64,000 bases of DNA from an uncultured Sphingomonadaceae bacterium (GTDB lineage: Bacteria > Pseudomonadota > Alphaproteobacteria > Sphingomonadales > Sphingomonadaceae). Below the pieces are notes generated by a model. The model had not been told where the DNA came from. It saw nothing but the letters and a program-made list of their open reading frames with translations, and did no database searches. Below, piece by piece: positions 30,625 through 32,901 of the stretch. The number at the start of each line of letters is the position of its first letter. The first letter of the stretch is position 1. The stretch lies in NCBI GenBank assembly GCA_947489315.1, contig CANLCX010000002.1, positions 248,001 to 312,000 on the forward strand. The letters are read 5' to 3'. Position numbers and translations under genes: made by a program.

Positions 30625-32901
30625 TTATTCTGCCGCTTTTACAATTTCCGCCCATGCCGCTTCATCTATGACGTCTATGCCCAGTTCTGCGGCCTTTTTC
30701 ATTTTCGATCCGGCACCGGGGCCAGCGACAAGCAAATCGGTTTTTGCGCTGACGGAACCGGAAGCCTTCGCTCCCAAAGCCTCTGCCTGCGCTTTGGCTT
30801 CATCACGGCTCATCGTTTCGAGCTTGCCCGTGAAGACTACGGTCTTGCCCGCCACGGCGCTGTCTCGAGTCTCGACGATATAATCCGGCGGCGTGACTTC
30901 ACTCAGTAGAGCTTCCCACAATTCGCGATTATGCGGTTCATGGAAAAAATCGGCGAGAGAATGCCCCACGGCCGCCCCTACGCCATCCAGTGCGATAACC
31001 TCCGAAACAGCAGCATCAATGCGCTGCCGGTATTTCTTATCCTCTTCTTCCGGTATTTTCTCGACGCCAGATCGCTCTGTCTCAATGGCTTCCGCGAGCG
31101 AACGAACCGCTTCCAGTCGCGTCACTTTTTTCAGCAGATCGCGCGCTGAGACCGCGCCAATATGTCTTATGCCCAGACCGAATAATATGCGCGCGGCATC
31201 GGCGGAGCGTTTCTTTTCCACACCAGCCAACAGATTATCCACAGACTTATCCTGCCAGCGATCACGGGCCAATATCTCTTCGCGGTGCTGATGCAGGCGG
31301 AAGATGTCAGCAGGACTTTCGATGAAACCAGCGTCGATAAATTCGGCTATGGTCTTTTCGCCCAAGCCATCAATATCCAGTGCTGCACGCGACGCGAAAT
31401 GCGCCAATCGCTGGAACCGCTGGGCTGGACAGATCAAGCCGCCGGTGCAGCGTACATCGACTTCGCCTTCTTCCGCGACGGCCTCGCTATTGCATATCGG
31501 ACAATGGTCGGGGAAGTGATAGGGCTCGCGCTCTTCGTCGCGGGTCAGGTTTTCCGCCACCTGGGGAATGACATCGCCCGCGCGCTGGACCAGAACGCGA
31601 TCGCCGGGACGTACGCCGAGCCGCTCTATTTCATCGCGATTATGCAGCGTCACATTAGAGACAACCACGCCGCCCACCGTCACAGGTTTGAGACGCCCAA
31701 CCGGGGTAAGCTTGCCGGTGCGTCCTACTTGAATATCAATGCTTTCAAGGGTCGTCTGCGCCTGTTCAGCCGGAAATTTATGCGCCAAGGCCCAGCGCGG
31801 AGCCTTTGCGACAAAGCCAAGGCGCTGCTGCCAATCAAGCCGGTCAACCTTATAGACCACCCCGTCAATATCATAAGGCAAGTCCGCACGTTCCGCTTCA
31901 ATATGCCGGTAATGCGCCAGCATCTGCTCCAGCGTTTCAAATCGTTTGACCAGCGGCGATAGTGGCAGGCCCCAGGAGGCGATTGCCGTCATGACGTCAA
32001 AAGCGGTTTCACCGGGCAAAGCGCTTGCCACGCCCCAGCCATGGGCCCAGAAACGGAGCGGCCTTTTGGCGGTAATCTGTGCATCTTTCTGCCGCAACGA
32101 TCCTGCCGCCGCGTTACGCGGGTTGGCAAATTGGCGGATTTTCTCTGGATCAAAAGCGACGTCTTTGGCCACTGCATCGGCTTTGCCTTCATCCATCAGG
32201 CGGGTGTTGAGGCCATCAAAATCTCTCTTGGCCATATAGACCTCACCGCGAATTTCGAAGACATCGGGAATATCAAAGCCCCTCCTCTTCAGAGGAGGGG
32301 TTGGGGTGGAGGAATCTATTTGCTGCACAAGCGACACCTGCGGCGTCACTCCCACCGCTTCCCCCTCCCTTGAAAGGGAGGGGCTTACATCTCCAAGTAC
32401 TTGCGGGATGTCTGCGATCATTCGCACGTTCGCGGTCACATCCTCACCAATCTGGCCATCACCGCGCGTCGCGGCCAATACCAATTCGCCTTTCTCGTAG
32501 CGCAAGGAACAGGACAGACCATCTATCTTGTCCTCCGCCGTCACTGCCACGGGCTCGCCCTCTGGCAGGTTCAAGAACCGCCGCACCCGCGCGAGCCATT
32601 CGGCGATATCCTCATCGGAAAAGCCATTATCGAGGCTCATCATCCGCTGTTCATGTGGGACTTTGGACAGCGGCGAACTGGCAACTGCTGCGCCAACAAG
32701 TTTGTTCGGGCTATCATCGCGCACCAGATGCGGAAACGCCTCTTCGAGTTCGTTATTCCGCCGCACCAACGCATCATATTCCGCATCGGCAATTTCCGGC
32801 GTGTCTTCGGCATGATAGAGCTTGTTATGCTTGGCGATGGTGCGAGCGAGGCGCATCAGTTCGTTGGCGGCTTCGGCTTCGGAGAGAGAACTACTCGTCA
32901 T
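30625..32901 (-). CDS. ligA: NAD-dependent DNA ligase
   Basis: 758 residues, longer than the roughly 670-720 usual for LigA. Domain order: Ia ([15 protein letters not shown]), adenylation with nucleophile Lys in [17 protein letters not shown] fold, zinc cysteines (HCPICNSEA ... [10 protein letters not shown]), helix-hairpin-helix repeats and a C-terminal BRCT ([19 protein letters not shown]). It seals nicks in DNA using NAD. Residues about 173-208 are an extra segment ([10 protein letters not shown] ... PTPPLKRRG) encoded by a palindromic element inserted in frame between the conserved adenylation stretch ending IADIPQVLG and FEIRGEVYM. The gene starts at 32901, overlapping the HEAT-like gene by 11 bases. 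Confidence 0.95.
32276..32386. repeat. REPIN-like palindromic element inside ligA
   Basis: 111 bp, exactly 37 codons. Ends are inverted repeats AAGCCCCTCC (32276-32285) and GGAGGGGCTT (32377-32386). Each end forms its own hairpin: CCCCTCCTCT-TC-AGAGGAGGGG (32279-32300) and CCCCTCCCTT-GA-AAGGGAGGGG (32362-32383). Beside the first is TTGGGGTGGAGG, a REP-like tail, and the inverted counterpart near the second is imperfect. The ligA frame reads through without a stop. Confidence 0.85.

Follow-up and report, generated by a model that had tools for sequence, protein, structure and literature searches.

How does a palindromic DNA element come to be read in frame within the gene for an essential enzyme? 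The question is raised by ligA in a window of 64,000 nucleotides, the whole stretch of DNA analysed here, from an uncultured Sphingomonadaceae bacterium (its genome is referred to as G000). The original prediction, made from the letters of the window, had placed a REPIN-like unit inside this coding sequence and had suggested that a second gene in the window was affected in the same way. The features discussed below are listed in Table 1; the names ligA, truB and those of other genes are a reading of the protein sequences.

Table 1. Positions, in the window, of the two genes with in-frame palindromes and of the parts of their elements.
Feature	Position	Strand	Remark
ligA (NAD-dependent DNA ligase), element in frame	30625..32901	-	ATG at 32901 from translation
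Palindromic element inside ligA	32276..32386	.	111 bp, 37 codons; net 38 codons versus empty site
Left hairpin of ligA element	32279..32300	.	
Core between hairpins of ligA element	32301..32361	.	G-rich inner tail (TTGGGGTGG) beside left hairpin
Right hairpin of ligA element	32362..32383	.	
truB (tRNA pseudouridine synthase B), second gene with in-frame palindrome	42110..43174	-	
truB element bounded by TCCTCTCC-type hairpins	about 42529..42688	.	Right edge by eye

The element within ligA and its copies in the genome

A unit of 111 bp with 10-bp terminal inverted repeats and a hairpin at each end, continuing the reading frame without a stop, had been predicted, and all of this is borne out by the sequence. 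The termini match exactly over 10 bp, with AAGCCCCTCC at 32276-32285 and its complement at 32377-32386. Each end makes a perfect hairpin of 22 bases, in which a gap of 2 bases separates the 10-bp arms, and the two ends together form a 25-nt inverted repeat that is 84% complementary, with 61 nt between. The coding strand at 32270-32395 folds better than 200 of 200 shuffles (z -4.59), and the hairpin pattern has two occurrences in the window, both in the ligA unit, against 0.08 expected. The ligA ORF is open across the insert, which is in frame.

LigA was compared across 81 sequences (80 loci and the window). The loop that carries the insert measures 50 codons in the window and 12 codons in all of L029-L035, a net gain of 38 codons, and the expectation of an unusually long LigA is confirmed to this extent. 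A segment conserved in most sphingomonad LigA proteins had been named as the observation that would speak against an insertion; 67 of the 81 LigAs, with loops of 12-17 codons, lack any such insert, and in the other 14 the loop has at least 19 codons. In the LigA tree (79 rows, L072 and L091 being left out) the window groups with L029-L032 (SH-aLRT 98), none of which has the insert. At the DNA level, the closest ligA with an empty site shares about 90% identity with the window, too little to fix the insertion junction or a target duplication, and no clear target-site duplication is visible. In a modest structure model (mean pLDDT 78, pTM 0.47, 24 rows), residues 174-208 of the modelled stretch have a pLDDT below 50 and no predicted secondary structure, and the ten-residue blocks on either side score 93 and 85; the insert is therefore probably located in a disordered loop, in line with the predicted loop placement.

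The genome-wide search suggested by the original prediction yielded three further full-length copies. Searching G000 with the ligA unit gave 13 DNA matches, four over the whole unit (ligA itself and others at 86, 83 and 75% identity) and nine to one end. The hairpin pattern was found at 28 places per strand with up to three mismatches, versus 6 for the reversed-pattern control, and at 22 versus 0 with up to one mismatch. When the places with up to three mismatches were paired by position, 13 pairs resulted, namely ligA, the three full copies and nine others, two of which enclose DUF559 nuclease genes. The element in ligA is thus a real, repeated palindrome in a protein-coding gene, and it is missing from the nearest relatives.

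Ten short pairs in G000 measure 111, 111, 111, 120, 123, 123, 99, 96, 99 and 100 bp. Judged by the surrounding ORFs, three are in frame inside genes (ligA, ileS and a DinG-like helicase gene), one lies close to where an ABC-permease gene starts, and the remaining six lie beside genes. The length is divisible by three in nine of the ten short elements (L001-L014 set), including five of the six beside genes. This is a lead only, since the copies are related and those in genes must comply; as a rule it was rejected, G018 having hairpin spacings of 77 as well as 78 and 79 bp. Four of the ten short elements are open in four of the six frames, and frame-neutrality is therefore not a rule. The idea that the short elements are deleted DUF559 units was likewise rejected, their cores looking unrelated, by eye, to the DUF559 ORF.

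Small nuclease genes between hairpins

We examined the flanks of 83 DUF559 loci, the best-scoring one or two per genome, with fragments and weak matches left out; DUF559 matches had been counted in three overlapping surveys (51, 103 and 130). Hairpins were required to be perfect, with arms of at least 8 and a loop of 2-8, within 200 bp of the gene, the distance applying to the whole hairpin for the sphingomonad and class-wide sets and to its midpoint for the phylum sample; L146 was too short and was left out of the 200-bp flank count. At least one hairpin was present at 77 of the 83 loci (both sides 50, one side 27, none 6). The 30 sphingomonad loci had hairpins on both sides in 24 cases, on one side in 3 and on neither in 3, and the corresponding counts for the 29 class-wide loci were 14, 12 and 3. 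In the phylum sample, both sides were occupied at 6/13 loci inside the class and 6/11 outside it, and one side at 7/13 and 5/11, respectively. When the distance was reduced to 150 bp, 21/30 DUF559 loci had hairpins on both sides and 6/30 on one, compared with 15/3000 and 277/3000 for random 310-base stretches of ligA loci. On sequence grounds, DUF559 genes are associated with such hairpins.

The hairpins are concentrated next to the gene, at 0.77 per side in the first 100 bp and 0.00-0.07 per 100 bp beyond 300 bp, and they are of a particular kind, with a pyrimidine-rich 5' arm in 158 of 175 hairpins near DUF559 versus 15 of 54 at 400 bp or more. A G-rich run motif tends to lie on the inner side (58/158 hairpins, against 24/158 on the outer side). 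Similarity between DUF559 proteins and similarity between hairpin arms were correlated across 73 of the 83 loci (Spearman 0.337, 2588 of 2628 pairs, no value as high in 2000 permutations), a statistic that still includes shared ancestry and base composition; loci were dropped if they contained a stop, if the domain was short or if no hairpin was of the pyrimidine type. Stretches of at least 13 bases shared across the DUF559 gene were inverted at 19/30 and direct at 8/30 sphingomonad loci, and 10/29 in either orientation class-wide; the class-wide equality is what self-complementary ends would give, and it lends no independent support to the DUF559 link. Weak DUF559 matches also occur within ORFs of about 2000 codons in several genomes (e.g., G000:C2:653536-653697).

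All three short DUF559 genes of G000 have hairpins on both sides; two lie between inverted hairpins at places found with the pattern, and the third is accompanied by another hairpin type. Examples of hairpin-flanked DUF559 genes in G000 are C4:121558-121866 and C1:1245023-1245328. One unit, on the prmC side, has its 22-base hairpin at C4:121496 and 121908, and the same 22 bases recur without change at both ends of the ABC-permease element, at one end of the ileS element and at one end of the DinG-like element. In another genome, G014, the hairpin variant around DUF559 (C1:836578-836886) recurs at 13 of the 17 hairpin places listed, including one inside truB and two inside ileS. The ligA insert belongs to a 111-bp subfamily that matches DUF559 flanks of other genomes (L133, L135 and L122); its exact partner is not among the three short DUF559 genes of G000, which have other hairpin variants. 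Counting against the DUF559 link, G002 has no DUF559 match yet has two hairpin hits per strand.

The ligA insert may plausibly have had a source close by. A hairpin-DUF559-hairpin unit occupies the recN-ligA junction of L029 and L030 (sister genome), and DUF559 units are also found at this junction in L036 (no right hairpin seen), L038, L039 (interrupted), L042 and L044, with short hairpin pairs alone in L037 and L043. Neither a DUF559 unit nor a hairpin pair was seen there in the window, L031-L035, L040, L041, L048 and L090, in a survey in which L053 was not judgeable and long stretches were seen in part. More generally, the junction (window 32891-33388; L029-L048) holds varied small genes or elements and unrelated stretches, with almost nothing in L032 and L048.

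The DUF559 protein itself has the appearance of a nuclease. Across 23 proteins, E16, D45, E56, G59 and H62 are invariant and D58 is nearly so, and the DUF559 profile matches 3hrl (endonuclease-like, E 2.4e-34) and then 3r3p (mobile intron protein, E 0.0014). We found no link between DUF559 and palindromic repeats in the titles and abstract openings of the open-access papers listed for DUF559, and it may have been published elsewhere.

GIY-YIG genes had been chosen as a negative control for DUF559, their flanks being read at 30 of 81 matches. As a control they failed, with hairpins on both sides at 11/30 loci, on one side at 3/30 and on neither at 16/30; shared stretches of at least 13 bases across the gene were inverted at 17/30 and direct at 15/30. 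The failure led to a further result: the repeats beside GIY-YIG genes proved to be of other families than those of DUF559, namely the families present in other LigA loops. The Pfam model for GIY-YIG also picked up three UvrC loci, at which hairpins were absent. Many stand-alone GIY-YIG genes (L194-L223) adjoin palindromic repeats of several other families.

Inserts in LigA, TruB and tRNA synthetases

The 14 LigA inserts fall into about six families, with labels assigned by eye: CCCCTCC hairpins (window and L096), VSTSLDTNG (L037, L039 and L041), EPVE (L038 and L053), PGEGR (L036, L042, L043 and L044), PREGG (L040 and L090) and a half unit in L087. Mapped on the tree of 79 rows, the insert states require at least 11 changes, or at least 7 when presence only is scored. 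Thirteen of the 14 inserts match repeats near small nuclease genes: in blastn against 250-bp flanks, the inserts of the window and L096 matched DUF559 loci only and 11 matched GIY-YIG loci only, the GIY-YIG match of L036, L042 and L044 depending on a single locus, L208, at which the hairpin test gave no pair. The L087 insert matched none of the DUF559, GIY-YIG and Y1 flanks in the same search, and none of the 14 inserts matched a Y1 flank. Judging from these comparisons, the LigA loop is a landing site for inserts of about six families. At a second LigA position, core column 577, VSTSLDTNG-type extensions occur in several rows (L037-L043, L090 and L096).

The second affected gene in the window is very probably truB, whose element differs from that of ligA. 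Five near relatives align over the truB element (89-94% TruB identity), and the TruB loop of other relatives has either visibly different inserts, with families judged by eye, or a short loop (L244-L248). Inserts in IleRS, also by eye, occur at several positions.

Protein-coding palindromic elements had been described as best known from Rickettsia, and the novelty of the case proves overstated. According to PMC3733652, two sphingomonads, E. litoralis and S. alaskensis, have intragenic REPs with GTAG/CGTC tags in truB and in genes for tRNA synthetases, and O. terrae has them in a gene for a DNA ligase; the paper also mentions the RPEs of Rickettsia and reports REPs at about the same recB site in two Xanthomonas species, other such genes having them at different sites. 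As a repeated palindrome in frame inside a conserved protein gene, the ligA element resembles an RPE, and it is a further instance of this known kind; it also resembles a MITE in having terminal inverted repeats, no gene, and ends in common with a gene-bearing element. The present inserts share with RPEs and with the intragenic REPs of PMC3733652 their in-frame position in important genes (truB, tRNA synthetases and DNA ligase), but they have other end sequences, the RPEs being compared by description only, and here a single LigA loop has received about six families that mostly match repeats beside nuclease genes.

Origin and significance of the element

Which process could have placed the element in ligA? 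The REPIN-like reading of the original prediction holds in part: there are two inverted hairpins with a spacer, repeated in the genome, and, according to PMC3116915, an inverted hairpin pair around a variable spacer is the layout of REP doublets. A classical REPIN mobilized by a RAYT (Y1/HUH transposase) is nevertheless very unlikely here. The search for a RAYT gene produced a single Y1/RAYT-like (Y1_Tnp) match in G000, and although its existence would suit a REPIN, it has no hairpin within 250 bp; at 200 bp, 0/11 Y1/RAYT loci have hairpins on both sides and 1/11 on one side. Moreover, a Y1_Tnp match is present in 9 of 19 genomes versus the hairpin in 15 of 19, and no GTAG or CGTC tag was seen by eye at the ends of the ten short elements of G000. 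In contrast to REPINs, the hairpins found here are neighbours of DUF559 genes rather than of the Y1/RAYT genes that were judged, and they have pyrimidine/purine stems, often with a G-rich inner tail.

Two further explanations were weighed. If DUF559 were a passenger, a homing-type nuclease inserting into existing palindrome doublets that spread by other means, the match to the mobile intron protein 3r3p, second among the structural matches, would be accounted for, as would the 27 of 83 loci with a hairpin on one side only. We consider this unlikely, since matched inverted hairpins lie close to both gene ends in many loci and the nuclease and hairpin sequences co-vary; despite the profile match that they share with this Vsr-like homing endonuclease, the DUF559 units that were read are bounded by inverted hairpins, with no intron or intein seen around them. 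Alternatively, the hairpins may be recognition sites of a single-strand-specific nuclease acting in recombination or DNA uptake, and not the ends of mobile elements. There is reportedly a precedent in Ssn of Neisseria, a GIY-YIG single-strand-specific nuclease with cognate repeats that is said to shape recombination or DNA uptake, and GIY-YIG genes in the same genomes as those studied here do adjoin other palindromic repeats. Like Ssn, DUF559 is a small nuclease that stands alone and has a repeat close to its gene, but it belongs to another nuclease family, a Caulobacter DUF559 protein being described as Vsr-like, of the PD-(D/E)XK superfamily (PMC12907096). Relatives differ in whether the recN-ligA junction holds a whole unit, which looks like mobility and makes the recognition-site explanation improbable.

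The explanation that we favor, with a probability of roughly 0.6, is that the ligA insert is a non-autonomous copy of a hairpin-ended mobile element, the autonomous form of which carries a DUF559 (Vsr-like) gene, and that it is tolerated as 38 extra residues. In such an element, each end would be a hairpin whose 5' arm is rich in pyrimidines and which often has a G-rich tail on its inner side; the autonomous form would consist of one small endonuclease gene, DUF559, between two inverted ends. We infer that the nuclease mobilizes the repeat: it may recognize the hairpin ends, single-stranded or as duplex, and may drive the copying of short elements in trans. The copy in ligA would be translated, adding the extra residues to the enzyme. 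Where a loop of an essential gene is permissive, copies inserted in frame would survive, whereas selection would remove the others. We propose that this filter would make the LigA loop a place where palindromes land repeatedly, whether they are linked to DUF559 or to GIY-YIG.

In a broader form, to which we give an even chance, DUF559 nucleases may be the movers of phylum-wide CCCTCTCCC-type hairpin elements, in parallel to RAYTs and REPINs and to the GIY-YIG repeats, and short copies, together with GIY-YIG-linked ones, may repeatedly colonize permissive loops such as those of LigA and TruB. To our knowledge, short palindromic repeats are common in Proteobacteria and mostly have no known mover, RAYT-linked REPs excepted. 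We think that the new parts are the DUF559 association and a LigA landing loop common to nuclease-linked families. Tying CCCTCTCCC-type hairpins to DUF559, which is named only as a domain of unknown function, provides a testable partner for each: the repeat becomes a candidate substrate of the enzyme, and the enzyme a candidate for acting on the repeat. If short copies do colonize the same loops, much of the length variation there would have been written by selfish palindromes. The LigA loop, in which one essential protein has been lengthened several times by unrelated repeats, would offer a direct route to study new protein segments.
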